Assembly: GCF_019670105.1 (NCBI RefSeq)
Contig: NZ_AP023032.1
Coordinates: forward strand, 1,544,972 to 1,608,971
DNA: 64,000 bases
From: Agarivorans albus
GTDB taxonomy: Bacteria; Pseudomonadota; Gammaproteobacteria; Enterobacterales; Celerinatantimonadaceae
Reading direction: 5' to 3'
Part shown: in pieces, positions 9,867-40,957 of the stretch
Numbering within the stretch: position 1 is the stretch's first letter
How the letters are laid out: the number at the start of each line of letters is the position of its first letter
The notes under the pieces: generated by a model
What the model was told of the DNA's origin: nothing
What the model saw: the letters and a program-made list of their open reading frames with translations, nothing else
The model's database searches: none
Translations under genes and position numbers: made by a program

Positions 9867-11519
9867 ATGAGGTATGCGTTAAGCCTATTGTTTCGAAACC
9901 GGTCAGCAATCGATGTATTGCTCTCTTCTACATTTATAAACTTACTCTCGCTCGCTTTGCCTTTTGCCATGTTGCAGATTTACGACCGCATATTACCTAA
10001 CCAAGGCTACGGCACGGCTACGGTTCTTATGCTCGGTGTAGCGGTGGCTATTTTACTAGAACTAGTGTTGCGATATATACGTAGCTGGTTATTGGCTTCT
10101 GCAGCCGCTAACTTTGAGTTGCATACCACTATTGATGCGGTGAAAGCTCTACTCGCTAGCAGTTTTGAACCTATTGCGAAACTTGGCAGGGGCGGGGTAT
10201 TTAATGGCTTAAGTTCAATAGCAGGTATGCGAGACCTATATTCTGGTCAAGCGGCCTTAGCCCTGATTGATTTCCCATTTGTTGTTATTTTCTTAGCTTT
10301 AGTGGCTTACATTGGTGGGCCCTTAGTTTTTATCCCGATTGCCGTATGGGGATTAATTAGCCTACTTGTATTGTTGCTTGGCAAGCAGTTAGCCCAAGCC
10401 ACTAAAGATTTAGCGCTTAGCGAGGCTGAACGTTCACGATTGTTGATTAACGTATTGTCTGGGCTAACCACCACTAAAGCCTTAGCTCTAGAAAGTGGCA
10501 TTGCCGCAAATTACCGAAAAATTAACTATAAGCGTTTGCAACAACAACAGCGGGTTGATTGGTTATCAGCCAAGCTGCAAGAGTTTATTCAAGGCGCCTC
10601 TCAGGGAACTACCTTAGTATTGGTATTGTTGGGGTGTTTAATGGTGTTAGATGGACAGTTAACCACTGGTGGCTTAGCGGCTTGTTCTATATTAGCGGGT
10701 CGAGCGGTTGCTCCTTTAAGCGCCATTATTAGCCTGCGCTCTCGAATGGTTACCGCTAAGTCTGCGATGCAACAAGTAAAGCAGTTGACAAGTTTAGAGG
10801 GAGAACGCTTTAGCGCCGAACATTGCTATCAGCAAAAGTTACCAGCAGGGCCCATTGAATACAGCCATCTAAGTGCTAAAACTTCGGTGGCCTGTATTGA
10901 AAACGCGAGTTTTAGCTTGCCCGCTGGCAGCATGGTGGTAGTGCAATCTAATCCTCTTAGCCACGCCAGTTTAGTATTAAGTACGCTGGCTGGCTTTCAT
11001 CAGTTGCAACAAGGCAGCATTAATATTGCTGGTGTTGAACTTGGCCAGCATGACGCAAATGAGTATCGCCAATCCGTGGTGTATTTAGCGCCGTGGCCTA
11101 CCTTGTTTGCCGGCAGTTTGATGGAAAACATGACCTTGTTTCGGCCTGAATTAGAAGCTAATGCCATGGTGTTAGCAGAAGAGTTGGGTTTGAGTGCTGC
11201 CATTTCCTTGTTACCAGCCGGTTATCAAACCCGCGTGGGAGACAGCGGTAATCAAATGCTTAACAAAGGAGCGATTAAACTTATCGCTTTGGTGCGCGCG
11301 TTAGCGCAGCAACCGTCGATATTGCTGCTAGACGAGCCTATGTTGTCTCTAGATGCTGATGCTCAGCAGCGTTTACTGACCTTGCTAAGTAAGCAAGGCG
11401 ATGACATGACGGTGATGATCGCTTCGCATTTTGACGAAGTAAAAGCCCATTGCGACATACAACTGCAAATTGCAGAAGATGGCTTAGTCAAGCTGTTAAA
11501 ACAACAGAGGGGGGCTTAA
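9867..11519 (+). CDS. Type I secretion ABC subunit with degenerate ATPase domain
   Basis: This 550-residue ABC exporter half has six membrane helices in the first 300 residues (start RNRSAIDVLLSSTFINLLSLALP, shown in part: RNRSAIDVLL) and a C-terminal nucleotide-binding domain. That domain is eroded. Where Walker A should be, residues 360-368 read QSNPLSHAS, with no glycine loop and no lysine. The LSGGQ signature is LNKGA at 465-469. Walker B with the catalytic Glu (ILLLDEP) and the H-loop histidine (IASHF) remain. It has no N-terminal peptidase-like domain. The next ABC gene starts one base after its stop and has an intact Walker A, so the two most likely form a heterodimer in which this half cannot bind ATP normally. 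An AAAGGAAG site precedes the ATG. It is the first gene of the adhesin export operon. Confidence 0.88.
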   Translation: MRYALSLLFRNRSAIDVLLSSTFINLLSLALPFAMLQIYDRILPNQGYGTATVLMLGVAVAILLELVLRYIRSWLLASAAANFELHTTIDAVKALLASSFEPIAKLGRGGVFNGLSSIAGMRDLYSGQAALALIDFPFVVIFLALVAYIGGPLVFIPIAVWGLISLLVLLLGKQLAQATKDLALSEAERSRLLINVLSGLTTTKALALESGIAANYRKINYKRLQQQQRVDWLSAKLQEFIQGASQGTTLVLVLLGCLMVLDGQLTTGGLAACSILAGRAVAPLSAIISLRSRMVTAKSAMQQVKQLTSLEGERFSAEHCYQQKLPAGPIEYSHLSAKTSVACIENASFSLPAGSMVVVQSNPLSHASLVLSTLAGFHQLQQGSINIAGVELGQHDANEYRQSVVYLAPWPTLFAGSLMENMTLFRPELEANAMVLAEELGLSAAISLLPAGYQTRVGDSGNQMLNKGAIKLIALVRALAQQPSILLLDEPMLSLDADAQQRLLTLLSKQGDDMTVMIASHFDEVKAHCDIQLQIAEDGLVKLLKQQRGA

Positions 11520-11520
11520 C

Positions 11521-13572
11521 ATGGAGCAGCAAAATCCTGATTTAAAACCCACCTTAATTAGTTTGTTGCAGCAACTTGGTTTGTACTCTCAAGCAACCAA
11601 TATAGAACAAGACCAGCGCATAGATTCGCTAGATGTTATGGGTTTTGTGGGGCTGCTTAAAAAACACCATATTGCCTATTCGGTGCATCGTCACTTGCCT
11701 TCCTTAGTTTCTCAAGCGGCTCATCCTTTTGTACTGATATCTGATCATCATGCTCCTAAGTTGTTGCGTCGCCATGGTGAGCAACTGGAACAGTTTGAGC
11801 AGCAGTGGCAAGCCTGTGACCCCGCAACTATCGGTGAAGACGCGCATCTAATTATGATTGAGCGCTTGCCTCAGCAGGGATCTTCTGCGAAAGCTTTTGC
11901 CGAGCAAGTGAGCAAGCGAAGTAAATGGTATCGGCCGGTATTTTGGCTCAGTTTATTGTCTAGCTTGACGGGATTAGCCGTGCCGCTATTTACAATGGCA
12001 GTTTATGACCGTGTAATTGGCGGTCAAACACCTGAGGTATTGCCCAGTATTGCTTTAGGTGCGGCATTGGCCTTAAGCATTTTAGTTGCATCTCGCTTGA
12101 TTAGAGCAAGAGTGATGTCCTCAGCGAGTAATCGCATGGCGAGAGATTTGTCTGAACTTACCTTTCACCGTTTGCTGAACATGCCGTTAATGGTGTTATC
12201 GCGAGTGGGCATTGCCAATCATGTGGCGCGTATGCGTAATGCAGAAAAAGTTCGCACTGTGTTATCTGGTCCTGCTGCAGGTGGCTTAATCGATTTACCT
12301 TTTACCTTCATCGCCTTAGCGACCATTACTTTGTTAAGTGGTTGGTTGGTGCTGGTTCCACTGCTGATGTTACTGGTGTTTTACCTACTTATGCGACTAA
12401 TGCGCAGCTACATTCAAAGCGCTTCTCCTAAGGTATCTGGTGAGTATCAAAATGCGCTTAACGAGTTGGCTAAAAATCTCACCCAATTAAAAGCGGCCGG
12501 GCAAGTCGATGCTTGGACCACTAAGTTTGCCCGTTTATGCCGTGAGAATAGCCGGCAGAACTTTCGTTATGCGGCGCGCAATGGGCTAATGGCTGCCGTT
12601 GCTCATGCTTTAAGTCTATCCACTGCCTTGGTCACTGTTTTCTGTGGCATTTTCTTGGTGCTTAACCAGTCAATATCTGCTGGGGCGTTGATTGCCTGTG
12701 TCATGCTTATTTGGCGAATTACCGGCCCAGCGCAACTAGCGTTTAGCTCCACCCAAAAGTTCACCTTGCTAAAGGGGGCCGCTGAGCAGTTTGACCGATT
12801 TATGCAGGTGAAAACCGAAAATAGCGAACTGCGTTTAGATGTACCCGATATGAGCTGCGCACCTAGTGTGTCTTTTCAACATTTAACCTTGCGTTATGGA
12901 GCCGAAATGGAGCCGGCATTATCGGCCGTTAATGCTGAAATAGACGCTGGAGAAATAGTAGCAGTCATTGGTCCTAATGGCTGTGGTAAAACCTCATTGT
13001 TGCTATCAGCTTTAGGGGTAATTGAACCTCAAGCCGGTTATGTAGCAATAAACAACAAAAACATTCGCCAGTACGATCCGGAGCTATTGCGCTCATGGGC
13101 GGCTTATTGCCCGGCAGAGCCAGATTTATTTCCGGGCACTTTGGCTGAAAACCTACGAGTAGCAAATCCTGATGCCAGTGATGAACAATTAATTGATGCG
13201 TTGTTGGCTGCTGGTGGGCAAGCGTTATTTAGCGCGTTAAATGAACAGTTAGATGCGCCAATTGCAGGTGATGACAGTGCCATGCTATCGGCGGTAGAAG
13301 GTGGCTACATTTCTTTAGCAAGAGCACTACTAAAAGGGGCTCAGTACTTGCTGTTAGACGAGCCTTTAGCAAACCGAAACCCAGATGCTAAACGCCAATT
13401 TATTCGCACCTTAGAAAGCTTGCGAGGCAAAGCCACAATTATCTTCACCAGCCATGATCAAGAGCTAATTCAACTAGCCGACAAGGTAATAATTTTAGAC
13501 AAAGGTACAGCCGCTTATGTTGGACCTATTCCTTCACAGCAGCCTCAAACCAACAGTGATACGGAGCAGTAA
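11521..13572 (+). CDS. Type I secretion ABC subunit with degenerate C39-like domain
   Basis: This 683-residue inner-membrane exporter begins with about 130 residues resembling the inactive C39 peptidase-like domain of LapB/HlyB-type transporters, with no catalytic Cys-His pair visible. Six membrane helices follow (about 145-430), then an ATPase domain. Walker A is intact (GPNGCGKT, 484-491), as are Walker B (YLLLDEP) and the H-loop (FTSHDQE). The signature is LSAVE at 589-593 instead of LSGGQ. The gene is spaced one base from its partner upstream and two bases from the HlyD-type gene downstream, so the subunits should be made in balance. The likely substrate is the giant adhesin encoded at the operon end. 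Confidence 0.9.
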   Translation: MEQQNPDLKPTLISLLQQLGLYSQATNIEQDQRIDSLDVMGFVGLLKKHHIAYSVHRHLPSLVSQAAHPFVLISDHHAPKLLRRHGEQLEQFEQQWQACDPATIGEDAHLIMIERLPQQGSSAKAFAEQVSKRSKWYRPVFWLSLLSSLTGLAVPLFTMAVYDRVIGGQTPEVLPSIALGAALALSILVASRLIRARVMSSASNRMARDLSELTFHRLLNMPLMVLSRVGIANHVARMRNAEKVRTVLSGPAAGGLIDLPFTFIALATITLLSGWLVLVPLLMLLVFYLLMRLMRSYIQSASPKVSGEYQNALNELAKNLTQLKAAGQVDAWTTKFARLCRENSRQNFRYAARNGLMAAVAHALSLSTALVTVFCGIFLVLNQSISAGALIACVMLIWRITGPAQLAFSSTQKFTLLKGAAEQFDRFMQVKTENSELRLDVPDMSCAPSVSFQHLTLRYGAEMEPALSAVNAEIDAGEIVAVIGPNGCGKTSLLLSALGVIEPQAGYVAINNKNIRQYDPELLRSWAAYCPAEPDLFPGTLAENLRVANPDASDEQLIDALLAAGGQALFSALNEQLDAPIAGDDSAMLSAVEGGYISLARALLKGAQYLLLDEPLANRNPDAKRQFIRTLESLRGKATIIFTSHDQELIQLADKVIILDKGTAAYVGPIPSQQPQTNSDTEQ

Positions 13573-13574
13573 AT

Positions 13575-14900
13575 ATGGAACAGCGTCAATTGTCTAATCG
13601 TATTTGGCCAGAACATGAATTTACTGATGCCATTGAAGCCCCCGCGGAGAGAACGCTGATTAGGCGTATTGCGTGGTTTATTGCGTTGTCAGTATTGGGA
13701 ATGCTGTTGTGGTCAATTTTTACCACTGTGGAAGAAATTGCTAAAGCCAAAGGGCAGGTAGTGCCACTGGGTCACCGACAAGTTATTCAAAGCCAGCTAG
13801 GTGGAACTTTAGCCTCTGTGAGTGTAGAGGAAGGTGACGTGGTTAAGCAGGGCGATGTACTTGCAAATTTTGTGGCCATTGATAGCCAGTCTTTAGAGGA
13901 AGAATTAGCCAGCAAACAAGCCAACTTAGAATTACGTATTGAGCGTTATAACGCCTTTGTTGAGCAGCGCCAAGCTAACTTTTCGGCATTTGAAGCAGAG
14001 TATCCTAAATTGGTGGCGCAGCATGTTTCAGCGCTTAAAAGGATGAATGCTGAGTTAGCTGCAACTTCAGCATTAACAGAATCGGAGATAGCTAAAGCTA
14101 AGGCAGAATTAGCAGCAGTAGAGAATGAAGTGCCAGCATTAAGTGATCAAATAGCGGCTTCTCGTAAAACTATCAACATGATGAAATCACCAGGTGGCAT
14201 TCAGGTGGTTTCTAAATTACAGCTACTAGAAGCTCAACAAAAGCTCGACTCTTACATAAGAGAGCTAAAATCTTTAGAGGGTAAAGAACAAGTTTTAAGT
14301 AAAAGTCTAACTAACCTAAGTAAGCAACTAGATCAGAAAAATGCGGCTTTGTTCAATCAAGTAGGCGAAAAACGGGCTGAGGCTCAAGCCGAATTGTTAG
14401 GGGTTGAGGCGCGTTTAAAGTCTTCCGGTTCACAAGTTTCTCAAACTACTGTTTTGGCGCCGGTCGATGGGATTGTGCAATCTATTCCGACTACCTCCTC
14501 AGGCAGCGTAATTGCACCAGGCGGAACTGTCGCAGTAATTGTTCCCACTACCAAGGAAGCGCTAATCGAAGCCAAACTATCTCCACGTGATATTGGTTTT
14601 GTTACCGAAGGACAACCTGCAAGGGTGAAAATAGACGCCTTTGATTACAGCCGATATGGGGCATTAGATGGGATTGTGCAAAGGATTTCTCCTTCTACAG
14701 ATACCGATGAGAAAGGGGGCGTTTTTTACAAAGTTAAAATAAGCATAGATAAACCCTATTTTAACGATGACCCTGAGCGCTTTGGCCTTATTCCTGGGAT
14801 GACTGGTGAGGTGGATATTGTGACGGGGGATAAAACGGTATTTCAATACTTATGGAAGCCAGTATTTACCAACATAACCACTGCCTTTGGCGAACGTTAA
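13575..14900 (+). CDS. HlyD-family membrane fusion protein of the type I secretion system
   Basis: This 441-residue adaptor links the inner-membrane ABC pair to an outer-membrane TolC-type channel. It has a cytoplasmic N-terminus, one membrane helix near residues 30-47 (IAWFIALSVLGMLLW), and a lipoyl/barrel half-motif at GGTLASVSVEEGDVVKQGD. A long alpha-helical hairpin spans about 105-280, and the second half-motif is VLAPVDGIVQSIP. The C-terminal beta-barrel region ends with GLIPGMTGEVDIVTGDKTV, typical of HlyD/LapC proteins. The ATG follows GGAG inside the end of the upstream gene. No TolC gene lies in this operon, so an outer-membrane partner encoded elsewhere is needed. Confidence 0.92.
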   Translation: MEQRQLSNRIWPEHEFTDAIEAPAERTLIRRIAWFIALSVLGMLLWSIFTTVEEIAKAKGQVVPLGHRQVIQSQLGGTLASVSVEEGDVVKQGDVLANFVAIDSQSLEEELASKQANLELRIERYNAFVEQRQANFSAFEAEYPKLVAQHVSALKRMNAELAATSALTESEIAKAKAELAAVENEVPALSDQIAASRKTINMMKSPGGIQVVSKLQLLEAQQKLDSYIRELKSLEGKEQVLSKSLTNLSKQLDQKNAALFNQVGEKRAEAQAELLGVEARLKSSGSQVSQTTVLAPVDGIVQSIPTTSSGSVIAPGGTVAVIVPTTKEALIEAKLSPRDIGFVTEGQPARVKIDAFDYSRYGALDGIVQRISPSTDTDEKGGVFYKVKISIDKPYFNDDPERFGLIPGMTGEVDIVTGDKTVFQYLWKPVFTNITTAFGER

Positions 14901-14912
14901 GAGAGGTTTGTT

Positions 14913-17900
14913 ATGACTAAGCAGCAAGATAAATCAGCCTCAAATGCCAAAGGCAAACTCTCTCTAGGTAGTAACAGCAACAACAAAGGTAAGGAGCTAA
15001 AAAAAGCCAAGCGTATTGATGAAGATGTTGCGCGACTTAAAGCTAAAGAACTCCGGGATGGAAAAACCGTAGGTTTAAGCAATCAAGATTTGGTTGCTGA
15101 TAAATCTCATCAGCAACTGCTAAGTGAGCAGCAGGCTTTACCAGATGAGGGGTTATTGTCAGAAGCCACAAATCCGTTAGAGACAATTTCGAAAACCGGT
15201 AAAGGTGGGGAATCTGCTAATGCTAAATCCTCCGAATCCGATGACACTTCAAAAGCCGTTGCTGGCGCTGCCTTGGTGGAAGCTCCCTTAATTGATGGCA
15301 GCAAAGCGACAGCAAGAGTGGGTAAAGGAGGGGGTAGCAGTGCCAACTCTCATTGGTTTGCTGCACATTCATTTCTTAATCATGTTGGGGTTAAGGGTTT
15401 AACGAGCAACCAGTTGGCAAATGTTGAGGGTAATAATTATAAGCCCAGTGTGACAGTACAACAGCTTACTAAAGTTAATCACTCTCAAACTGACCAGCAG
15501 CAAGTACCTGTTATTCATGCTGAAGGGGCTCAGCAACAAAGCGGATCAGTAAAAGAAGATAAAGTGAGCGAGGTGAGCGGTCAGTTGCATGTTGCTGGTG
15601 TTGACGCTAACCAAGTAAGCTGGTCAGTTGAGTCAGGAAGTGGGGTTTATGGCCAGCTGGTTGTAGACTCTCATACTGGGCAGTGGCGTTATCAGTTGGA
15701 TAATGTACTAGCTACGACCAATGCTTTGGCTGAAGGAGAGCACCATAGTGAGCAATTTGTTGTTTTAGTTAAAGACAATCTGCAGCATCAAATCAAAATG
15801 GTGGTTTCAATAGAGGTGGAGGGCAGTAATGATAAACCCCAAATCTCTGGTTTGTACCATGCCAACGTTACTGAGATGGCTGCACTTTCTGAAGTTGATG
15901 GTCAGTTATTCGCTAAAGATCCAGACCACAATGAGCAACTACAATGGGCAGTTAGCCACTCTCAAGGTCAATATGGCCGATTAACTATTAACCCTGATAA
16001 TGGGCAGTGGCAATATCAGCTTGATAATAAGCAACCTGCAACCCTTGCGTTAATCGAAGGGCAAAAGGGGGTTGAGCACTTTGTTGTTAGTGTAACCGAC
16101 AGTGCTGGTGAAGTAGTTAAGCAAGACTTAACTATTCAAGTTCTCGGCACTAATGAACAGGCGATCATTGGCGGAGGGTATAGTGGCTTACTCAGCGAAG
16201 ATAAAGATGTTCATCAAGGGCAACTGCGCGCAGATGGTGTATTAACAGTTACGGATCTGGATAGCGGTCAAAACCAGTTCCAAGCCAATGTGCTACAAGG
16301 GCAGTTTGGTAGCTTATCTATTGACGAACTTGGCCATTGGACATACACAGCTGACAACTCACAAAGTTCAATTCAAGGCCTTAAAGCTGGTGAATCATTA
16401 ACGGATACGTTATTGGTTCACAGCGTCGATGGCACCGAACAGAAAATCACTGTCACGATTGATGGTACCGATGATAAAGCGGTGATTGCTGGCACAGCAA
16501 CGGCCTCGCTCACTGAAGATAAAGAGGTTCATAATGGCCTACTTCGCGTTGATGGGGCGCTGACTGTCACTGATGTTGATGCTGGAGAAAACCAATTCCA
16601 AGCAACATCTTTACAAGGGCAGTTTGGTACGCTGAGTATCAATAATCAGGGTCATTGGACTTACACTACTGACAATTCTCAGACTGCAATTCAAGGCCTT
16701 AAAAGCGGTGAGTCGCTTACCGATACCTTAGTCGTTCATTCAGTCGACGGCACTGAGCAAAAAATCACTGTCACGATTAACGGCACCGATGATAAAGCTA
16801 TTATTGGTGGTACATCAACAGCATCACTGACAGAAGATAAAGACGTTCATCAGGGTCTACTTCGTGTCGATGGTGCACTCATTATTACAGATAGTGACAA
16901 TGGCCAAGCCCAGTTCAGCGCGGAAACCCTGCAAGGTCAATTTGGCACACTGAGCATCAATAATCTCGGCCATTGGACCTACACGGCGGATAACTCACAA
17001 GCCACTATTCAAGGCCTGAAAACTGGTGAGTCAGTAACTGACACATTGCTGGTTCATTCTGTGGATGGCACTGAACAACAAGTCACCGTCACCATTAACG
17101 GCACCGATGACAAAGCCTTGATTGCTGGTATATCAACGGCCTCGCTCACTGAAGATAAAGACGTTCATGCTGGTCAGTTGCGCGTGGACGGTGCGTTAAC
17201 CATTACAGATAGTGACAATGGCCAAACCCAGTTCAGCGCGGAAACCCTGCAAGGTCAATTTGGCACACTGAGCATCAATAATCTCGGCCATTGGATTTAC
17301 ACCGCGGATAATTCACAAGCGACCATTCAAGGGCTAAAAACCGGTGAATCTGTTACCGATACACTATTTGTTCATTCGGTTGATGGCTCGTCACAACAAT
17401 TGACCGTTACGATTAATGGTACTGATGACAAAGCTATTATTGGTGGTACATCAACAGCATCACTGACAGAAGATAAAGACGTTCATCAGGGTCTACTTCG
17501 TGTCGATGGGGCGCTGACGGTAACGGATGCGGATAATGGTCAGGCACAATTTACCGCTACCTCATTACAAGGTCAGTTTGGTACTCTTTCTATCAATGAA
17601 TTAGGTCACTGGACCTACACCGCTGATAATTCTCAAACCGCGATTCAAGGTTTAAAAACTGGCGAATCACTAACTGATACATTGTTGGTTCACAGCGTCG
17701 ATGGCACTGAACAGAGAATTGCTGTCACCATTAACGGCACCGATGATAAAGCTCAAATCGCAGGCGCTTCAACTGCAAACCTGACTGAAGATAAAGACGT
17801 TCATGCGGGTCAATTGCGCGTGGATGGAGCCCTGACCATTACTGATAGCGATAACGGCCAAGCTCAGTTCAGCGCGGAAACTCTGCAAGGTCAGTTTGGT

Positions 17901-20900
17901 ACTTTATCAATCAATGAGTTAGGTCACTGGACTTACACTGCGGATAACTCTCAAGCGACTATTCAAGGTCTAAAAACCGGTGAAGCCTTAACTGATACAT
18001 TATTGGTGCATAGCGTTGACGGCACTGAACAAAAAATCACTGTCACGATTGATGGGACCGACGATAAAGCTCAAATCGCAGGCGCTTCTGCTGCAAACCT
18101 CACTGAAGATAAAGACGTTCATAGTGGTCAACTTCGAGTCGATGGTGCACTCACTGTTACCGATTTAGATAACGGCCAAAGCCAATTCGCTGCTACATCA
18201 CTGCAAGGCCAGTTCGGTATCCTGAGTATCAACAATTTAGGGCACTGGTTCTACACCGCCGATAACTCTCAGCCGAGTATTCAAGGGCTTAAAACAGGTG
18301 AATCAGTTACTGACACATTGCTGGTTCACTCTGTTGATGGCGCTGAACAACAAATCACTGTCACCATTAACGGCACCGATGACAAAGCCGTGATTGCTGG
18401 TACTGCAACGGCCTCACTTACCGAAGATAAAGATGTTTATCAAGGGCAGATTAGAGCAGATGGTAATTTAAGCATCACCGATTCCGATGCAGGGCAGAGC
18501 CAGTTTGCGGCTACCTCATTACAAGGACAGTTTGGTACTCTTTCAATCAATGAATTAGGTCACTGGACTTACACTGCGGATAATTCACAAGCGACCATTC
18601 AAGGGCTTAAAACCGGTGAATCTGTTACCGATACACTATTTGTTCATTCGGTTGATGGTACGTCACAACAATTGACCGTTACGATCAATGGTACTGATGA
18701 CAAAGCTATTATTGGTGGTACATCAACAGCATCACTGACAGAAGATAAAGAGGTTCATAGTGGGCAATTGCGTGTTGACGGTGCACTCACTGTTACCGAT
18801 CCCGATGCAGGGCAAAGCCAGTTTGCGGCCACAACACTACAAGGCCATCTTGGTACGCTGAGTATCAATAATCAGGGGCACTGGATCTACACCGCCGATA
18901 ATTCTCAGCCTACGATCCAAGGCCTTAAAAGCGGAGAGTCACTCACCGATACATTGCTGGTGAACTCCGTTGATGGCACTGAACAAAGAATCACAATAAC
19001 TATTAATGGCACTGACGATAAAGCTCAAATCGCTGGCACCTCAACAGTAAGTTTAACTGAAGATAAAGAGGTTCATAATGGACAGTTGCGTGTTGATGGT
19101 ATCTTTACGGTAACTGATCCCGATGCTGGACAAAGCCAATTTTCTGCCACCTCATTACAAGGTCAGTTTGGTACTCTTTCAATCAATGAGTTAGGCCACT
19201 GGACTTATACTGCTGATAATTCACAAGCGACCATTCAAGGGCTTAAAACCGGTGAATCTGTTACTGATACACTATTTGTTCATTCGGTTGATGGCACGTC
19301 ACAACAATTGACCGTTACGATCAATGGTACTGATGACAAAGCTATTATTGGTGGTACATCAACAGCATCACTGACAGAAGATAAAGACGTTCATCAGGGT
19401 CTACTTCGTGTCGATGGTGCACTCACTATTACAGATAGTGACAACGGTCAAACCCAGTTCAATGCTGAAAGCTTACAAGGCAAATTCGGTACGCTGGCTA
19501 TCAATAATTTGGGTCACTGGACTTACACTGCTGATAACGCGCAAGTGGCGATTCAAGGGCTCAAAACTGGCGAATCACTCACCGATACATTGCTTGTACA
19601 TTCGGTGGATGGCACTGAGCAACAAATTACCGTGACCATTAACGGCACAGAAGATAAAGCAACCGTCACCGATGCTCAAACGGACATGAATTTACGCGGC
19701 GTTACTGAAGATCGCGGCTACATAGATACCCATTACGACCTGCACTATGACGGTCAATTAAACATTCAAGATCCCGATAAAGGCGATAACAGTTTTGACC
19801 CTAATATAGGTCCACAAACTTACCAAGGTATTGGTTACGATACTAAACTCGGTGGGCATATCTTACTCATGCAAGATGGCCACTACACCTATACGCTGGA
19901 CAACCGTCATATTCAAGACCTTGCCGCCGGCGAAACAAAAACAGATTCGGCGATTATCCGCACCGCTGACGGCACTGAGCATACCATCAAACTTAGTGTA
20001 CACGGCACCAATGATACTCCCACAGTGAGTGCACAGTCACAGTCTGTCACTGAGGGTGGCGCCATCCTAAATGGGCAGATGATAGGCCATGATATTGATA
20101 CTGGTGCACAACTGCGTTATTCAGCACCACAGGTAGATGGACTCACATTAAACCCCGACGGCAGCTACAGCTTTGACCCTAGCCATGCAAGTTATCAATC
20201 ACTAGCCTCTGGGGTAACAAAAACACTTACGATTCCTGTCACCGTCACTGATGAACATAATGCCAGCGCCACACAAAACCTTTCTATTAGCGTAACCGGC
20301 ACCAATAATGCCGCCGTCATTGGTGGAGTTGATACTGGCGATGTCAGCGAGGGAACTGCTGGACAAGATATGTCGCCAGATTATGCTCAGCCAGGCATGG
20401 CTAAGTTAGGTCAAGCAGCACTAACAGCTGATGGCAAGTTAGATATTGTTGACCCCGATACAGGAGAGTCTCAGTTTGATCCTAAAGGCGGTGCCTGGAA
20501 TAACTCTTACCATGGACAATATGGACACTTACTATTAAATCCAGATGGAACGTGGCATTACGATGTTACCGTAGGGAGTGTTGATTGGGTCGGAAATAGT
20601 AAGACAACAATCGGCACTGCCATTGATAAATTAGGTGAGCATCAAACGTTAACGGATACCATTACTGTATACGCTAAAGATGGTACATCTCACGACATTA
20701 TTATTACCATTCATGGTGATAATGACCGCCCATATTGCTCTTCAGAAGTGCTGCTAGCTAGTGGCAAAGAAGATCTAGCTCAAACCATCTCTGTCGTTGA
20801 TCTTTTAGCAAACACCATAGACGTGGATGCCAATGATGCAGGCAAACTCACCATTGCCAATCTACATGCTGATCATGGGTCTATTCTCACTAACCAAGAT

Positions 20901-23900
20901 GGCACCTTTACCTTTACCCCAGACAAAGACTACAACGGTCAAGTCCATTTCAGTTATGACGTGAAAGATGCACATGGCGGCATCACCCACACCGGAGCGA
21001 CAACAACACTTAGCGCGGTGAGAGACAGTGCTGTCATCACAGAGGTCAGTAGTGGCAGTATTACTGAAGATGGGGCCCACAGTAGTAATGTTAATGGCAC
21101 CGTCACCGAGATTGCTAATGGTACCCTCAATGTCGTTGATCCCGATAGCGGTGAAAATGCATTTAGATATAGTCAATTTGGCGAAACAAAAATTCATGAC
21201 CCGTTTGGTGGTCAGCTACGCATTGACAGTGCTGGTAGCTGGGCCTATAGCGTTGATAACGCCAACCTGCAGCATCTAGCACAAGGTCAAACTGAAATCG
21301 TAGTATATCGCGTACATAGTAAAGATGGTACACCCTACGATCTTCATATTAATGTCACGGGGACTAATGATGCACCCACTGTAAACCAAGTGCATCTAAC
21401 CAATGGTACTGAAGATGTCAGTTACCAAATGCAAGCAAGCCAGTTTGGTTTTACTGACATAGATACTGGCGACACCTTACAGGCTATTACCTTAACTAAC
21501 TTGCCAAGCGCAGCAGAAGGCAAATTTGTACTTGATGGACATGATGTATCAGCAAATCAGATTATCGATGTTGGAAATATCAGTAAGCTTCAATTTGTTC
21601 CAGCGAAAGACTTTAATGGTGATGTTCATTTCCGTTATACCGTGAATGATGGCCATGCCGATTCCGCTCCCGCAAGTGCAACATTGTCTATTAACCCCGT
21701 TAACGATCCATTAGTTGATAGTGGCACTAGAACATTAGCAACTCTCAACGAAGACAGTAGCCGCCATATTTCCACGGCACAACTGCTTGAACATTTGTCG
21801 GACCCAGACGGGTCACTGCAGGTTGTTGGTACCCCAACTTCACCCCATGGAACCTTTAGTGGCGACGCAATTCACGGCTACACGTTTACGCCTACTGCCA
21901 ACTTTCATGGCGACAATGTCGATATTATTTATCAAGTTACCGATGGCACTAACCAAAGCACTGCCCATGCAAGTATTGATATTACCTCAGTGACCGATCC
22001 TGCTACGGTAAGTCTACATATTTCTGCAGAACAACAAGTCATGAGCTTTGGTTCTGGTGATAAAACAGCTTATGCCAAAGTAGATGGTATCGATGCCGGT
22101 GGCCCCATGCATGCAATGTCAGCCGAAATCACCTTCGTGCTCGACAATGGCCATCCGCCAAGCAATGCAGCGGTGCTATTGAACTACTCTGTACCCGGTG
22201 GCCATGATCAACAAAATACTATTACTTTTTGGAATGCCAGTAATCTGCAGTTTGCCTTTATGGGGCCGACAGTAGACACGGGAGTGAACTTACTTGATGG
22301 CAATACACATCGCTTAACGATGACATGGGATTCAGGTAGTGGTCATTTAGTGGTTTTTGATAACGGCCACATAATAAAACAACAAACGGTTAATCAAGGC
22401 GGTACATTCCCTAACGGCGGTACTTTTATCGCTGGCACACGAGACAATTCCGCGGGGGCTGATAATCCAACAGATTATACCGCTAGCCTTTCAGCAGGAG
22501 GCCGAGTGTTTTCCGCAACCATGGTCGATCATGCCGTGACGCCTGCATCTGTTGCTTTAGGTACCATAGCCCATGAGCCTAGTGGCGTTCTAACCAATAT
22601 TATGGCCGATGGTAAAGGTAATTTTATTGATACCACGGGCCATCATACTGTAACAAGTGGCCCAGGTGCTCATACCGTAGTTGTGCCTGTTGATAGTAAC
22701 GCAGGCACTGTCCCTAGAGGTGCGTTATTGCATCTACACCCTAACGTAGCTGTCAATGCTCCTGACGATGTTGTCACTAAACTCGAAATTAGCGGCTTAA
22801 TTAAAGGCACACTCTTATCGGATGGTCACGGGCATCAGCACACAATAGCCAGCCTCAATGATAAGGTGGATATCCATGGCTGGAATACCGCATCGTTAAC
22901 TGCGCAGTTGCCCCATGATGCCGCAACAAACATGAACGTAGCCCTTACTGCAACAACCCAAGCTCCTGATGGAAAAGAAGCAATTTCAATTGAACATGAA
23001 GGATTACAACTTGATCCTAGTAAGCCCATTCCAGATGCAACAATCACTGGCGATTCAACCGGTAATACCGATGAAGATCACTCAGTAAGCGGCCAGCTAA
23101 CTGTCACCGATACTGACACTAGCCAAGCACACGTTGCTGCCAACGATATTAGTGGCACCTATGGACACTTAGCTATTAATTCAGCTGGCCAGTGGACCTT
23201 TACTCCAAATGCCACCGCTAATGCGTTAACCAAAGATGATCAGGTACACGAAACCTATACCGTTTCTAGTATTGATGGTACCCAACACCAAATCACCATC
23301 AACATTGATGGCCGTGACGATAACCCAATCGTTACTGAACTCGCAGCACCTAAAACCGTTATTGAAGACGGCGGACACGACCACGTTCGCACTTCAGGCA
23401 TGCTAAGTATCAGCGATCCAGATACTGGAGACACCCATAGCATTACCGAACAAACCGATGTGTTGGGTACATATGGACACTTTACAATTGCAGCCAATGG
23501 CGGCTGGCATTACGAACTTGATAATGCTTTAGCTGCTACTCAAGCCTTAACCGAAGGGCAACACGTTACCGAAACATTTAATGTAGTCGTTACCGATAAT
23601 GAAGGTGGTCAAACAACTCACACCATGCACTTTGACGTACAAGGTAGCAATGAAGCACCAACGATTGCGACACAAGTCATCCATGCTATTGAAGATGTTA
23701 GTTATCACTTTACTGATGTTGACTTTGGTTTTACTGACAGCGATGGCGGCAGTTTAAGCAGTATCACCATTACGGAATTACCCGCTGCCAGTTTAGGTGT
23801 GCTGCATCTAAATGGTGCTGCCGTAACGGTTAACCAAGTCATTAGCCAAACGGATATTGCTAATCTGATATTTACCCCTGAACAAGACGTTAACGGTAGA

Positions 23901-26900
23901 GTTAACTTTAAGTACTCAGTTAATGATGGCCATGACAACTCATCGGTAGCAACGGCTGAAATTGATATTGCAGCAAGAAATGATGCACCGACCTCAGTTC
24001 ATCTAAGTGTTAGGGATATTGAAGACCATAGCCATACTTTCAGTAAAAATGAATTCAGTTTTGCTGATGTTGATACGGGCGATACATTGCAGCACATTAC
24101 CATCACTCACCTGCCAAATCCTGCACACGGTAGTTTGTTATTAGATGGCCGAGCAGTGATTGCTGGCCAGCAAATTGATGCTGATAACATCGATAAATTG
24201 GTCTTTACGCCGGTAACAGATTTTAATGGCGAGTCTGCGTTTAAGTACTCAGTAAGCGATGGCAGCCTAGACTCAAAAGAGTACACTGGCGCAATCCACA
24301 TTTCAGCAGATAACGATGCGCCAACTTTCTTAGCAGGTGGGCAATTTGCATCACTGCCCATCTCAGCGGCTTACGAATTTTCGGGTAATCAAGGCACCGA
24401 TCTATCAGGCCGAAGTAATCATGCCGTGCTAAGTGGCACCATCACAGCCACCACAGGTGCTGATGGCACGCCAGATTCAGCAGTGCAATTTCATGGTGAT
24501 AGCGGTGCCAAAATCGAGGTCCCGGATTTACAATATGGCCAAGGTATTACGGTATCCGCCACGGTAAAATTTGACTCAATAGCTGACAGTTATTCCAGAG
24601 TGTTTGATTTTGGTAATGGCCAAGCCAAAGACAACATTTTGCTCACCCATAGTGGCACCACCGATACACTGCAGCTCGAATTCATCGACGCTGCGGGTCA
24701 AAAGCATGACCTAATGGTGCCTCATGGGGTCACCTCGGGCCAATGGATGAAACTGACTGCGACCATTAGTCATGATGGTCATATGGCACTGTATAATAAT
24801 GGCCAGCTATTAGGGGAAACCGATAGCGGCGCAGAGCTTCCCGCTACCGCTAGAAGTCAAAATTTCATTGGCAAGAGCCACTGGTCACAAGATGGTAACC
24901 TGCATGGTGCTTTTGATAATTTTGCGGTGTTTGATCAGGTCATTTCTCCTGCACAAATTAAAGCACTTGCTTCAGCAAGTAACTTGAATGATCTGCTACA
25001 TAAGTACGATCAAATAGACCACGACCAATTTCACGCAACAGTTAACGTCAATCAAAGCTTTACCATCAATCAAGATGATATTTTAAACCAAGCCACTGAT
25101 ATTGATGGTGATACCTTATCGGTATCCCACGTATCCATTGCTGGGAATCACGGCACGATTCACGATAATGGTGATGGCACTTGGACCGTTACCCCTCAAT
25201 CCAACTATCGCGGTGAATTGAAAATCGAAGTCGACGTGACCGATGGGCAAGAAACTCTACCTGCGCACCTAACAGTTCAAGTGGGGAATGCCAGCATCAC
25301 CGGTGATAGCAAGTTAACTACCGACGAAACCCATGCCGTTTCGGGTCAACTTACAGTGACCGACCCCGATACCAACCAAGATCACTTCATCGCTCAAGTG
25401 CTGCCTAGCAGCCATGGGGAATTTAGTATTGATACCACTGGTCATTGGCAATATACGCCTAACAAAGCTGCACAAGCGCTGTCACAGGGCCAAAGTGCCA
25501 CCGATATCGTTACAGTTAAGACTGCCGATGGCACCCAACATCAAATCAGCGTCGACCTCACTGGTAGCGACACCGCGCCAACCACCGTCACCACCGATTT
25601 AGGCAAGGTTGAATCTGGCCACACACACGACTTTCAAGCAACTGATTTACTTGCGAATGTTACCGATGTTGATACCAGCACCGCGGGATTATCGATTGTG
25701 GCAGGTTCACTGCTCTCTCCCCATGGAACGGTAGTAACCAATCCTGACGGCAGCTATAGCTTTACTGCAACCCCAGGCTTTGTTGGTAACGATTTAGCCA
25801 TTAGTTTCAAAATCAGCGATGGTCATAACACTATTGATGCCAACGCAATAATTGATGTCACGCCGCCTCTGGCAATTACCAGATTAGAATATGATACCGG
25901 TGTCAGTGACAGTGACTTTGTTACTAGCGACGGCCACATAATCTTATACGGAACTGGCGAGCCCGGTAGCACTATCATGGGCAGTGGGATTCTCAGCGGT
26001 CCTAAAGCAATTGTCGATGCAAATGGTCATTGGAAAATGGATGTCAGCGCAACAGATCGCGCCGATGGTACCTATACGCTGACCGTATTTGAAGTAAAAG
26101 CTGATGGCAGCTATGCCCAAGCCCATCATAAAATCACTATAGATACTGCTAAACCAACGCTGTCTATCGACCCTATCTCCAATGACGATTGGGTAAATCA
26201 TCATGACCATCAGCAGGATTTAACTATTACAGGTGCCACAACCCATGTGGCTGATGGCAATTCGGTTGATGTGATTGTGGCTGGTACACACTATAGCGCC
26301 AGCGTTAACAATAACCATTGGCAATTGACCATTCCTGCCAACCAAGTTGCCAATATTGGCGACAACGCCTATCAAGTTCATGCTGAGGTTGTCGCTACAG
26401 CAACTGGCGATAGCGCTCATGAACAGAGGCAACTGGTGGTTTCAGCTGATCTCAGTACGCTGGTACAAACTCAAGCTGTCGAGGAGGACAGTAAGACTAC
26501 TGCGACAGGAACTTTATTTGCTGTTGGCGCTAGTGAAACCGTAACCACTACCGGAGTGCTACAAGGCAACTATGGCACCTTACACATGAACGCCGATGGT
26601 AGCTATCACTACACATTGGACAACCAAGCTGCCGCGATTCAGCAAATGGGGCAAACAGATACCCATGCAGATAACTTTTTCATCAGTTATACCAATAACC
26701 ATGGCGACACCAAGCATGCCGTGGTCAATATTGGTATTCATGGCACCAACGACGCGCCTCTGCTAACAGGAACCTTTGAAATATCCCGTTCAATTACCAC
26801 GGGCTCAATGACCAACACCCACTCTTACGGCTATATCAATATTGATGACATTGATAACGCTGACAACCTCAACGTCGAGTACATAGATAATCAAGGCGGC

Positions 26901-28758: not shown

Positions 28759-29370
28759 ATGAAATTACGCCTCGCTGTTGTTGGCGCTGCTATGTTCGCT
28801 GCTCTTCCTGCTCAAGCCGATCTACTAGGTTTAACACTGGCTAGTCATATCGCTCAAACCAATACTGACCCAAAAGCCTCGTCGGCTTGGCAGGGTGATT
28901 TAGAGCTGCGTTTTAAGCATCCTATTCCGCTTATTCCAAATGTGGCAGTAGGTGCTAACAAACGTAAGCAAGGTGATGCGGCAGATGGTTCTAGCTACCA
29001 AGGTGAGTTGTATTACAACTTGTTTGATACAGCAGGCCTTTATCTAGATGTGGGTGCGGGTTACGAGCGTTGGGACAGTGCCAACACTGCCTTAGCTGGC
29101 TCTGATGACGGTGAGCAAGTATACGCTGTAGGGCGTGTGGCTTGGCGTTTCCCTGGTTCTGGCTTAGGTTTGGAAAGTGATTTAAAACTGTCGCTTACCG
29201 ATGAAGATTACAAAGCGAACCGTTTCCGCGCGGGTGTTAACTACGAACTGTTTGATTTAGTGGCTAGCACCATTGATATCTCTGCGGGTTACCAGTACGA
29301 AGATATTGCAACACGTAGCTACAGCACCAGTAATAGCGGCGCTTACTTAGGTTTAGCTGTTAACTTCTGA
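28759..29370 (+). CDS. Small outer-membrane beta-barrel protein (TIGR04219-like)
   Basis: This 203-residue protein has a Sec signal peptide (MKLRLAVVGAAMFAALPAQA, cleavage before DLLG) and alternating amphipathic strands ending in a C-terminal Phe (LGLAVNF), the mark of an outer-membrane barrel. The pattern resembles the TIGR04219 family of small barrels in Vibrio and Alteromonadales, whose function is unknown. The ATG follows an AAAGGA site. It lies 187 bases after the adhesin but has its own leader, and it is far too small to be the missing TolC channel. Its last 28 bases overlap the end of the converging MFS gene. Confidence 0.82.
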   Translation: MKLRLAVVGAAMFAALPAQADLLGLTLASHIAQTNTDPKASSAWQGDLELRFKHPIPLIPNVAVGANKRKQGDAADGSSYQGELYYNLFDTAGLYLDVGAGYERWDSANTALAGSDDGEQVYAVGRVAWRFPGSGLGLESDLKLSLTDEDYKANRFRAGVNYELFDLVASTIDISAGYQYEDIATRSYSTSNSGAYLGLAVNF

Positions 29371-30587
29371 TAGCGAGTTGCTATGGCAGTTTGTTGCAAA
29401 CAACAGGCTGCCATTGCTACAAACCCTAGGCCTGCACTAAGGCTGACTAAACCAAAAATACCCTGCTGCTGATTTAACTGCCAAGCAAAAGCACCAAGAA
29501 ATGGGGCACTTGCGCTGGCGAGTAAATAGGGCACGGCCAACATTCCCGATATCGCTCCAAAGCCTTGTTCACCGAGTAATTGTTTGGTTAACACTGGCCG
29601 CAAAATACTGGTCACGCCATAAGCACTCCCTTGTAATACGACAAACAGCCAAATAAGGTGCTGGAGATGTTCGAGCTGCCACAGCAAAAAGGCGGCAACG
29701 AGCAAACTGCCAAAACACAGCATGGTTATAAGGGTATTCGATAGCCGTTTATCTACACTGATCATTGCGATGCGCCCAAGTACTTGCATTGGACCAATCA
29801 TCGCCATGACTAACACGGCATTATCTGCGCTAAAGTTGAGAGCGTGCATGCTTGGTAGTAAAAAGTTGACCAGTACCGTGTGGTTAAGTGCGCTAAGGGA
29901 AAAGGCTAAGGCAATAAACCAGAACACTGCGTTTTTGAGCTGAGTATTTGGTGAGCTCGATTGTTTAATGTTTGCGATGGTTTGCGTTTTGCCAAGCGCT
30001 GAGCTTTGGGCCCCTTGAATTAACTTGGCGCTAATAAATAGCAATGGAGTAGCGATGAGCAAAACAATCAAGGCCAAACTCACGGACGTTATTCGCCAGC
30101 CTAAGAGGTCGATAAGGTAATGGCAAAGTGGAAAGCTTAGGGTACCTGCAAAGCCAGCATATAAGGTGACTTTAGTGATCGCCGATTTAGCGTTGTCCCC
30201 GCGATAACGGGTAAGAAAAGCAAAACAAGGTTCGTATAAACACCCTGCGCTAGCGCAGCCTAGCACTAACCAAGCAGCATAAAACTGCCATAAGTTCTGC
30301 ACTTGGCTAACGGCCAGCAAAGCTATTCCCCCCAGCAGAGCGCTGCTGCTTAAAACCTGTGGGCCAAACCCTTTGTCGATTAAACGGCCAATAAATGGCG
30401 AGCAAAGTGCAGAGGCGACTAAGCAAATCGTGAATGCTAACGAGACATCGGCAATCGACCAAGCAAGCTGCTGATGCCAAGTGAGCAGCGTGGCAGGAAA
30501 GCTATAGTAGAGGCATGCCCAAAGCAGTGTTTGGGCAATGGCCATTCCATGAGTGGCTAAGCGAACCTTAGTTGAGGCTAGTGCCAC
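29343..30587 (-). CDS. MFS permease at the end of the phosphonate operon
   Basis: This 414-residue major facilitator protein has about twelve membrane helices and an MFS loop motif (GRLIDKGFGPQV) between helices 2 and 3. It starts with a GTG that shares its G with the TAG stop of the acetyltransferase gene upstream, so it is translationally coupled to the phn operon. A downstream ATG at residue 15 is a weaker alternative. The substrate is unknown; position suggests export or import of a phosphonate or a breakdown product. It runs convergent with the outer-membrane protein gene and overlaps it by 28 bases. Confidence 0.85.
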   Translation of the reverse strand: MALASTKVRLATHGMAIAQTLLWACLYYSFPATLLTWHQQLAWSIADVSLAFTICLVASALCSPFIGRLIDKGFGPQVLSSSALLGGIALLAVSQVQNLWQFYAAWLVLGCASAGCLYEPCFAFLTRYRGDNAKSAITKVTLYAGFAGTLSFPLCHYLIDLLGWRITSVSLALIVLLIATPLLFISAKLIQGAQSSALGKTQTIANIKQSSSPNTQLKNAVFWFIALAFSLSALNHTVLVNFLLPSMHALNFSADNAVLVMAMIGPMQVLGRIAMISVDKRLSNTLITMLCFGSLLVAAFLLWQLEHLQHLIWLFVVLQGSAYGVTSILRPVLTKQLLGEQGFGAISGMLAVPYLLASASAPFLGAFAWQLNQQQGIFGLVSLSAGLGFVAMAACCLQQTAIATRYQKLTAKPK

Positions 30588-31240
30588 TAAACGCTTTCGC
30601 TTAGCAGTTGTTTCTCATAGTGTTCCAGAAAGCTTAAGCAGTCTTCTTGGAACAATGGCAGGGCCTCGGCAAGTTTTTCATGCGACCAATCCCACCAGGC
30701 AAGTTTTTCTAGGCGCTCGCCAGTGCTTGGTTCATCAAAGCGCGGTCTTAATACCTTGGCAGGATTACCCACCACGATGTGCCAAGCGGGTACATCTTTA
30801 GTGACAATACTGCCAGAGCCAACAATGGCGCCATTACCAATGTTTACACCCGGCATAATAATCGCGCCGTGGCCAATCCATACATCGTGACCAATCTGCA
30901 CTTTGTTATCTGCACGCCAATCAAATACCTGATTGTCTACCTTTGCTGCCATTCCATACTTTTGCGGGCGGTAGCTAAAGTGGTGCAGGCTTGGCCGCCA
31001 CCACGGGTGGTTGCTGGGATTTACCCTTACGCTTGAAGCAATAGAGACAAATTTTCCTACTTCGCATAAAGCAATATCTACGTCGTTTTGGGCGTAGCTG
31101 TAATCACCAAATTGCACGTTGTCTAATAGGCAGCGTTCGCCGATTTCAGTCCAGCTACCTAGTTCAGAGCTGGTTACCTTACTGCTATTAGCTACGCTGG
31201 GCTGGCTGTTTAAATTTGCGCCGGGGTCTACTATCGCCAT
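30587..31240 (-). CDS. Left-handed beta-helix acetyltransferase of phosphonate operons
   Basis: This 217-residue hexapeptide-repeat transferase is of the type found in phn operons (annotated as a DapH/DapD/GlmU-related phosphonate metabolism protein). Hexapeptide turns run through [17 protein letters not shown] and [20 protein letters not shown], with [11 protein letters not shown] near the end, as in CatB/LbH enzymes. It probably acetylates an aminophosphonate intermediate, as PhnO does in other operons, but the substrate is not proven. The ATG has AAAGGAA just upstream, 16 bases behind phnP, and its stop overlaps the MFS start. Confidence 0.85.
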
Positions 31241-31256
31241 GGTTATTCCTTTGAAG

Positions 31257-32009
31257 TTATAGGCTTAGGCATAATTCGTCATGCCCAACCAGCACATTAC
31301 TGGGTAAGCAGTTGGGGTGTTGCATGAGGTATTCGTCTAAATCGTGGCCAATGTGGGTGAGCACCCAAATGCTGTCGGGCAGTGCATGTGCTAACTCAAG
31401 CACGTCGCTAAGATTATTGTGATTGCCTGAACGATGCAGAGGAGAGTTACTGCAATCAATCACTACATACTTTGGCGGCTGGCGCAGCAATTGTTGCCAG
31501 CTTTGGTCTGGGATCCCTAGGGTATCGGTTAAGTAGGCAATCCGGCCATTTTCACTGGCAAACAAGTAGCCTAGAGTTGGTTTTGAGTGATTTAACGCTA
31601 GCGGAGTTATGTTGATACCGGCTAACGAAAAGCTATGCATGGCTTGCCTCGCGGGCTGAAAATCTAGTAAACCAGGGTGCTTAAATAGGTCATCACACCC
31701 TAAGGGATCATCTGGGTGATAAACCGGAATTGGCTCTGCTACTCCCCAGCGTAATTCAAATAAAGCTTGTACATGATCCATGTGAAAGTGGGTGAGTAAC
31801 ATGGCATCAATAGACCCAGCCGGAAAGCGGGTTTGTAACTGCGGGTGGTTGGCGTCGATAAGTATTCGTTGGTCGTTTACCTCTAGCTCCGCTGAGCAAA
31901 GTAATCTTGCTTTGCTGGGGTCTAAGCCCGCTCGCTGGCAGGCGAGGCAATCGCAGCCGTACACTGGGCAGCCTGTGACATTACCGGTGCCAAGTAGGGT
32001 TAGTTTCAT
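31257..32009 (-). CDS. phnP: Phosphoribosyl 1,2-cyclic phosphate phosphodiesterase PhnP
   Basis: This 250-residue metallo-beta-lactamase-fold enzyme opens the cyclic phosphate released by C-P lyase, giving ribose 1,5-bisphosphate. Metal ligands are clear: THFHMDH near residues 73-79, LTDTLG and a distal THIGHD. An N-terminal Cys cluster ([13 protein letters not shown]) corresponds to the structural zinc site of PhnP. Length matches the family (about 252). Its ATG overlaps the phnN stop by four bases, and its product is the substrate of PhnN. Confidence 0.93.
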
Positions 32010-32608
32010 TGGATATATAACTCGGTAGTTTCTGTTTCAATGTATTTGAGCAGTTTGCTCACTGTGCTGTCTAGATTGCGGTTGTTGTCTAAGCGCCAAC
32101 ACTCTTCTGGTAGAGAAGCCTGATATTGTTCGCTGCGGCGCAGCCGTGCAGAGATATCGTGTTCAGATTCACGACCGCGCTTGCGCAGGCGTTCGGCCAA
32201 TATGCTGGGGTCTACCTCTAAGGCGATTATTCGCAAGCGTTCCCCAAATAACTCTTCAGCTAAGGGGATCTGTTGGCGAGAACCGTTGAAAAGCACCGAG
32301 AACCCCATGCTCAACCAAGTATTTACTTCGTTACCCACTGCGTAATTGCAGCCATTGGCCTGCCAGTCCATCGCAAATAAGCCGCTGTGTTTACGATGGG
32401 TGAACTCTGGCACGCTTAAGGCAATGTGATTTTCACCGCTATCATCTACCGCGCGGGTGATGTAGCGATGAGCAATCAGCAGGTTGCTGTCCGCTCGCAA
32501 CTGGCTACGTAAGCCATTAATTATGCTGTCTTTACCTGAGCCAGAAGGCCCCACCAAGTAAAACAACTTGGCTTCGCCGTTTAGTTCACTGGCAGTTAGC
32601 GAAGTCAT
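32006..32608 (-). CDS. phnN: Ribose 1,5-bisphosphate phosphokinase PhnN
   Basis: This 200-residue P-loop kinase converts ribose 1,5-bisphosphate to PRPP, the last step of the C-P lyase route. The Walker A motif is VGPSGSGKDS near residues 18-27, followed by a guanylate-kinase-like fold (AHRYITRAVDDSGENH). I use the ATG at 32608, whose A is the last base of the phnM stop (TGATG). A TTG one codon earlier is possible but unneeded. Confidence 0.92.
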   Translation of the reverse strand: MTSLTASELNGEAKLFYLVGPSGSGKDSIINGLRSQLRADSNLLIAHRYITRAVDDSGENHIALSVPEFTHRKHSGLFAMDWQANGCNYAVGNEVNTWLSMGFSVLFNGSRQQIPLAEELFGERLRIIALEVDPSILAERLRKRGRESEHDISARLRRSEQYQASLPEECWRLDNNRNLDSTVSKLLKYIETETTELYIQ

Positions 32609-33744: not shown

Positions 33745-33748
33745 CACA

Positions 33749-34450: not shown

Positions 34451-34474
34451 GATGAATCCTTGTAAGCTAGGCGT

Positions 34475-39054: not shown

Positions 39055-39065
39055 CTTAAGCTCGC

Positions 39066-39854: not shown

Positions 39855-39866
39855 TTAAGGTTCTCA

Positions 39867-39881
39867 ACATGTCTAGATAAG
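39867..39881 (-). promoter_or_regulatory. PhnF-type operator candidate in the phnD-phnE gap
   Basis: The plus strand reads ACATGTCTAGATAAG. This is the exact reverse complement of the 15-mer at 41839-41853 upstream of phnC. The near-palindromic TCTAGA core fits HutC/PhnF operators. It lies 12 bases upstream of phnE. Confidence 0.55.
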
Positions 39882-39893
39882 TTGCCTAAAGAA

Positions 39894-39915: not shown

Positions 39916-39923
39916 GTCGTTCG

Positions 39924-40931: not shown

Positions 40932-40957
40932 GCCATCTATCTCCTTATTAATTGGGT

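Follow-up and report, generated by a model that had tools for sequence, protein, structure and literature searches.

The window, a stretch of 64,000 nucleotides of the Agarivorans albus genome (contig NZ_AP023032.1, positions 1,544,972 to 1,608,971), carries on its forward strand an export locus in which two ATP-binding cassette (ABC) half-transporters, here called A and B, precede an HlyD-type adaptor and a giant adhesin. A (9867..11519, 550 aa) consists of a transmembrane domain (TMD) and a nucleotide-binding domain (NBD) and has no N-terminal C39-like domain; B (11521..13572, 683 aa) begins with a C39-like domain (approximately residues 1 to 125), followed by its TMD and NBD. The two open reading frames (ORFs) are separated by a single base. 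The adaptor (13575..14900, 441 aa) scores 413.8 bits against TIGR01843 (cut-off 208.65), and the locus brings together an ABC exporter and an HlyD-family adaptor, two of the three components of a type I secretion system (T1SS), the third being an outer-membrane channel. The adhesin (14913..28571, 4552 aa), the presumed substrate by its position, is a VCBS/cadherin protein with 26 Cadherin_4 stretches in addition to Big_9 and Cadherin_5. No GGxGxD RTX repeat occurs in its 4552 residues, and an RTX substrate was rejected on this basis. Candidates for the TolC-type channel are found in the genome (12 OEP matches), none of them in this operon. Structurally, the two non-identical half-transporters both have the type I exporter fold, and B aligns to the HlyB structure 8dck_A across residues 6..676. 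Their top NCBIfam match is the LapB/LssB-type model TIGR03375, at scores (A 327.7 bits, B 336.3 bits) that lie below its cut-off of 693.1. A and B would form the two halves of one heterodimer.

Alignment against LapB-type exporters reveals losses of ATPase motifs in both halves. In A, QSNPLSHAS occupies the Walker A position (residues 360 to 368; 10944..10970), the signature reads LNKGA with its second Gly retained (residues 465 to 469; 11259..11273), and there is no A-loop aromatic residue. The Walker B and D-loop segment (ILLLDEPMLSLD, residues 485 to 496; 11319..11354) is preserved as LLLDEP and SLD, as is the H-loop His521 (SH, 11427..11429). In B, Walker A is intact (GPNGCGKTS, residues 484 to 492; 12970..12996) and the A-loop residue is Tyr, but the signature has become LSAVE (residues 589 to 593; 13285..13299). 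Walker B is retained in B as YLLLDEP, followed by LANRNPD at the D-loop position (residues 609 to 622; 13345..13386), the D-loop itself being absent with ANRNP in its place; the H-loop His645 is present (SHD, 13453..13455). The Q-loop Gln is gone from both halves, which carry APWP and PAEP instead, with Ala532 at the Q-loop position of B (13114..13116). A misaligned signature was considered and rejected, the A stretch LNKGAIKLIALVRAL matching the LapB-type LSGGQRQAVALARAL with zero internal gaps.

A preliminary description of this DNA had reported the replaced Walker A and LNKGA in A, the intact Walker A and LSAVE in B, the Walker B Glu and H-loop in both, and the one-base spacing. Realignment and the ORF coordinates bear it out and add the loss of the Q-loop Gln in both halves, of the A-loop aromatic in A and of the D-loop in B. 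It had also proposed that one composite site has no P-loop and that the other sets its P-loop opposite a poor signature. The alignment agrees: given the make-up of composite nucleotide sites in ABC dimers set out in PMC7756269, the sole P-loop, that of B, would face the LNKGA of A. The retained site, with LNKGA and without a Q-loop Gln, departs from the consensus site of asymmetric exporters. The D-loop of A presumably belongs to the same composite site as the P-loop of B.

Gene pairing and motif loss across the family

The eroded exporter belongs to an old and graded family that reaches well beyond the window. One genome scan yielded 78 loci in named genomes of Agarivorans, Shewanella, Colwellia, Psychromonas, Vibrio, Aliivibrio, Ferrimonas and Thalassospira. 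At 77 of them A is open and precedes another ABC half and then HlyD, mostly with short overlaps (in L068, A is interrupted by the contig end). In the Vibrio halioticoli draft (L079), the A frame is split into 306 and 262 aa, by a draft error or a real loss, and B and HlyD are open. When each protein is assigned to its best BLAST match among the window proteins and five LapB-type exporters, 71/78 loci read A, B, HlyD; at six loci from Thalassospira a LapB-type exporter is the nearest pairwise match of the second half, although trees place that half in the B clade. A is present in at least 32 of 394 genomes of the window's order (matches of at least 640 bits, the next ones at most 337), and at least 57 of 398 genomes of a phylum sample reach E 1e-110; both counts are lower bounds, with three candidates scored per genome.

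In trees built from chosen subsets, A, B and LapB form three separate clades, with A and B outside the LapB clade and showing the same main split. Natural fusions of A and B also occur, as a single chain of 1363 aa on an Azospirillum plasmid (L035:9872-13960) and as proteins of 1295 to 1386 aa at five of 20 deeper loci (L150, L151, L152, L153 and L157; Pseudomonadota). Tandem pairing, paired clades and fusions together argue for a heterodimer, and the obligate pairing envisaged in the preliminary description is well supported by inference.

That description had also suggested aligning the NBDs of homologous pairs. The eroded pattern recurs in 85 such pairs, a tally that omits L079 (broken A) as well as L021, L026, L032 and L034, judged to be copies or near-copies of counted loci. 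The Walker A Lys (85/85 B, 7/85 A) and the A-loop aromatic (85/85 B, 1/85 A) are kept by B, as is the H-loop His to a large extent (80/85 B, 37/85 A). The D-loop Asp (85/85 A, 7/85 B) and the second signature Gly (80/85 A, 0/85 B) are kept by A. The Q-loop Gln is rare in both (6/85 A, 7/85 B), the catalytic Glu is found in 46/85 A and 50/85 B, and LSGGQ is absent from all 85 A and all 85 B. LapB-type controls, in contrast, have the P-loop in 20/20 and LSGGQ in 19/20. This recurrence, set against the controls, indicates that the erosion is neither chance nor a single case. Furthermore, since the P-loop, A-loop and H-loop persist in B and the signature and D-loop in A, the retained motifs fit a single composite site.

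The pairs fall into three grades. Grade 1 comprises 7 alphaproteobacterial pairs with the Walker A Lys and the Glu in both halves; the Q-loop Gln is present in 6 A and 7 B, and the signatures read LPRG in A and FSAS, FSTS or LSPS in B. Grade 2 comprises 44 pairs from Agarivorans, Shewanella, Colwellia, Psychromonas and a few Vibrio, in which A has no P-loop and B retains the Glu in 43/44. Grade 3 comprises 34 pairs from most Vibrio, Aliivibrio and Ferrimonas, again with no P-loop in A; the catalytic position of B is Asn in 32/34, and in none of the 34 pairs does either half have Glu or Asp at this position. Across grades 2 and 3 the Q-loop column contains no Gln (0/78 A, 0/78 B), although in 11 B and 2 A a Gln sits at the next residue.

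Deeper relatives retain far more of the machinery. The deeper set holds 47 pairs (one of them, L159, duplicates locus L108 from the set of 85): 28 of the 29 deeper loci from the LSGGQ search gave A and B (L222 did not), as did 19 of a 20-locus set (L160 has just the start of B). LSGGQ was found in 0/47 A and in 0/42 readable B, five of the 47 B signatures being unreadable. Most pairs have the Walker A Lys (A 44/47, B 43/44 readable), the Q-loop Gln (A 43/47, B 41/44) and the catalytic Glu (A 41/47, B 38/41). In the H-loop His (A 19/47, B 38/41) and the second signature Gly (A 45/47, B 12/42), they lean the same way as the 85. The P-loop Lys is missing from A in L149 and L154. L161 (G718) has lost the Walker A Lys from both halves, and in L158 (G436) B has Ser for the Glu and Asn for the His; these two loci have eroded along separate routes of their own.

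Because the alphaproteobacterial and deeper relatives have most P-loops and Q-loops, yet no LSGGQ, the erosion is old and stepwise. The preliminary description had counted pairs with a normal Walker A in both halves against its proposal. Such pairs were found (Thalassospira and the deeper members), but LSGGQ is absent from both their halves, and for this reason they seem to represent a less eroded, earlier stage and not a normal transporter. In a tree of the membrane-domain columns (72 of 104 pairs after thinning of near-copies, a quick method with Shimodaira–Hasegawa-like approximate likelihood ratio test support, SH-aLRT), grades 2 and 3 are each monophyletic (99 and 100) and group together with L149 (100). 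Given this clustering, loss of the P-loop from A in these lineages is most simply explained by one event.

Selection and conservation of the two domains

Both halves are under strong purifying selection. The median ratio of nonsynonymous to synonymous substitution rates (dN/dS, omega) among close pairs of Vibrio, Aliivibrio and Shewanella is 0.025 to 0.056 for the TMD and 0.039 to 0.126 for the NBD, from the pairs with dS between 0.05 and 1.5 (6 to 32 per class out of 15 or 45) and with the TMD/NBD boundary set at a fixed number of columns. Between the window and L023, omega is 0.119 for the A NBD and 0.055 for the B NBD. The stretch that replaces the P-loop in grade 2 is itself conserved, with a mean majority-residue frequency of 0.83 against 0.67 over the NBD and 0.78 over the TMD.

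The TMDs are held tighter than the NBDs, and far more so than in the LapB control. Within grade 2, the TMD has the higher identity of the two domains in 944/946 pairs for A and 928/946 for B, the margin being 13.5 points (A) and 10.6 points (B) at 55 to 70% identity, and in grade 3 the difference for A is 22.8 points at 40 to 55%. In the LapB controls the TMD is the more similar domain in 121/190 pairs, by 0.4 points at 55 to 70% (14 pairs), 1.2 at 40 to 55% (117 pairs) and 8.3 at 25 to 40% (3 pairs). Separately, B of the window (interval 12826-13572) and of its close relative L020 differ by a dS of 0.02 in the membrane part and 1.36 in the NBD, a contrast that looks like a sign of recombination inside B.

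A putative ATP gate and its alternatives

Taken together, the motif pattern and the gene pairing make it fairly probable that the two halves assemble as an obligate heterodimer, a T1SS exporter with one retained, non-canonical ATP site that works as a slow ATP gate. By gene position, its substrate is probably the adjoining VCBS/cadherin adhesin, which would leave through A/B, HlyD and an outer-membrane channel of the TolC type whose gene lies outside the operon. ATP would bind at the composite site to which B contributes its P-loop, A-loop, Walker B and H-loop and A its signature and D-loop, since the second composite site has lost its P-loop; binding at the retained one would close the NBDs and open the translocation path, and slow hydrolysis at the same site would reset the exporter. 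Members of the Vibrio branch, which lack a catalytic carboxylate, might reset by hydrolyzing ATP very slowly or by releasing the nucleotide. Such an exporter would be an ATP-operated gate more than a stepwise motor, and the push for thousands of residues would come mostly from the Ig-like domains as they fold outside the cell and from the membrane potential. Folding outside and the membrane potential can both supply energy for protein export.

The slow or gated ATP use suggested in the preliminary description is consistent with the motif losses. A gate is favored because the motifs leave one site, because the machinery is under selection and because TmrAB offers a precedent for a binding stroke: according to PMC7205462, a single ATP-binding stroke of this transporter moves the substrate and hydrolysis resets it. 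It is debated whether ATP hydrolysis in ABC exporters pushes the polypeptide along or ATP binding just opens a path; for a peptide transporter, binding has been reported to be the stroke (PMC7205462). The A/B family amounts to a natural motif-removal experiment across many species, wide and strongly selected, with no canonical signature found in it and with a gradient from otherwise mostly intact members (Alphaproteobacteria and deeper) through those with one site (Agarivorans, Shewanella, Colwellia) to those without a carboxylate (Vibrio, Aliivibrio). Setting these grades side by side would tease apart what ATP binding and hydrolysis each contribute to the export of very large proteins. More tentatively, and with doubt prevailing, the whole family may be an ATP-gated protein-conducting channel that uses one ATP binding per adhesin; in the Vibrio/Aliivibrio/Ferrimonas branch, where a catalytic carboxylate is missing from both halves, export might run with minimal ATP hydrolysis or none, driven by folding outside and the membrane potential. 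CFTR is an ATP-gated channel.

Known systems offer partial parallels. Most LapB-type adhesin exporters are homodimers with two complete sites. A/B resembles the LapB/LssB type (LapB for LapA) in its HlyD partner, its giant adhesin and the C39-like N-terminal domain of B, but differs from it in sub-cut-off scores, separate clades, two different halves, the lack of a canonical signature, an A without a C39-like domain and a P-loop in B alone. The MARTX-type four-component T1SS also uses two ABC proteins, RtxB and RtxE, which according to PMC3034196 are both required; like A/B, it pairs two different ABC halves with a giant substrate, but its order is ABC-HlyD-ABC, whereas the window has ABC-ABC-HlyD. 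Another Agarivorans carries an ABC-HlyD-ABC triad (L223, G005:C1:117500-124000), MARTX-like to judge by gene order alone, with the P-loop, LSGGQ, DEATSALD and H-loop His in both ABC halves; it branches apart from A and B. Membership of A/B in the RtxB/RtxE family was rejected against this comparator, itself named by gene order only, which forms a separate clade.

With TM287/288, TmrAB, TAP, BmrCD and CFTR, as covered in PMC7756269, A/B shares the fold and the combination of one retained and one degenerate composite site. Unlike these asymmetric exporters, the window clade has no P-loop of any kind in its degenerate site, and its retained site is non-canonical; for human degenerate sites, the same review singles out the Walker A change Lys to Arg in ABCG5/G8. 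Yeast Pdr5 comes close, with every motif of one site altered (Walker A Lys to Cys, signature LNVEQ), but its second nucleotide-binding site (NBS2) is canonical (PMC7756269), whereas A/B has no canonical site. In the open-licence literature searched, no description of this exporter, no T1SS exporter without a Walker A and no VCBS exporter with two degenerate sites was found.

Several observations weigh against a slow gate. The 85 pairs share ancestry and are not independent. In 10/44 grade-2 B the Gln one residue past the column makes loss of the Q-loop less certain, and the Glu persists in 39/44 grade-2 A, where a dead site would not need it. In grade 3 B the NBD is the better conserved domain at 25 to 40% identity (-5.4 points, 34 pairs, a bin in which the window was added to the Vibrio set). 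The B site of the window, with its Walker A, Glu614 and His645, may hydrolyze ATP at a useful rate despite LNKGA. The deeper members, with Lys, Gln and Glu mostly retained in both halves, may be standard ATPases whose signature is unusual.

These last two points lead to the main rival, which we regard as possible but doubtful: A/B is an ordinary ATPase with odd LPxG/LNKG and LSxS signatures that works at normal rates, perhaps with two sites in the deeper members and one in the gammaproteobacteria, as in asymmetric exporters. It draws on the largely retained Walker A Lys, Q-loop Gln and Glu of the deeper members and on the second signature Gly in 80/85 A; asymmetric exporters with one degenerate site are moreover common, according to PMC7756269. 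However, the A H-loop His survives in just 19/47 deeper members, the Q-loop column of all 78 pairs of grades 2 and 3 is without Gln (11 B and 2 A carry it at the following residue), all 34 Vibrio-branch pairs are without a catalytic carboxylate, and the NBDs drift faster than the TMDs.

A substrate different from the adjoining adhesin is improbable. The link does rest on position: the VCBS model finds no match at 22/78 loci or at 19/20 deeper loci (L149 being the one that matches), and the deeper members may carry different substrates. Against this, a VCBS frame lies in the flank at 56/78 loci, 15 of the 22 negatives end within 1.2 kb past HlyD, and the other 7 (six Thalassospira and Vibrio pacinii) have long downstream frames that the model does not match; the adhesins of the Agarivorans/Shewanella group also have an N-terminal NxDLVADKSW-like motif in common.

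We give little credence to the idea that A/B borrows power from a canonical LapB/LssB-type exporter, in mixed dimers or a larger complex. A LssB-type match above the TIGR03375 cut-off is present in 30/32 A/B genomes, but such a partner is unlikely because two genomes, G030 (100% complete) and G294 (93% complete), have none above the cut-off and the match in G111 contains a stop codon; A and B, in addition, are paired clades and fuse with each other. Decay, with A and subsequently B turned into a pseudogene or released to relaxed selection, is scarcely credible: catalytic motifs are lost and the A frame of L079 is broken, but omega lies far under 1 in each domain of each half, A is open at 77/78 loci and the residues replacing the P-loop are better conserved (0.83) than the NBD at large (0.67); dN/dS contradicts the recent pseudogene that the preliminary description had named as its undoing.

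Adhesins, plasmids and neighboring genes

The preliminary description had suggested that slow or gated ATP use may suit a substrate of 4552 residues. The adhesins next to A, B and HlyD vary in size, those of two Vibrio plasmids being annotated at 5076 aa and 3530 aa, and those compared contain few or no RTX repeats. Adhesins of Agarivorans, Shewanella and Colwellia begin with a Lys-rich stretch followed by the NxDLVADKSW-like motif (window 14913-15150; L037-L074). Vibrio adhesins end in YLDALGI...DLDIVLA-like stretches and an Asp/His-rich tail. These terminal motifs are possibly a separate class of T1SS signal. In L075 (Vibrio breoganii) and L076 (V. superstes), a VCBS frame of 2903 and 2886 aa, respectively, lies upstream of A, and L075 has a further VCBS frame downstream.

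Three Vibrio plasmids (L032, L033 and L034) bear A, B and HlyD together with a VCBS gene. One A-B-HlyD-adhesin plasmid, from V. navarrensis, is typed as conjugative, and on a V. fortis plasmid a gene for an HD-domain phosphohydrolase lies immediately upstream of the unit.

In the window, an outer-membrane beta-barrel gene (28759-29370) lies directly 3' of the adhesin; it is TIGR04219-like, at 71.3 bits, below the cut-off of 105. The interval 572-2813 encodes an Old/AriA/GajA-like AAA ATPase (558 aa) and then a 171-aa ORF without a match in Pfam or PADLOC, possibly a defence pair. A phosphonate cluster of the carbon-phosphorus (C-P) lyase type (29343-41782, minus strand) adjoins the adhesin; 8 of its ORFs were scanned, and its content includes PhnI, a phosphonate-binding protein, ABC parts and metallo-hydrolases.

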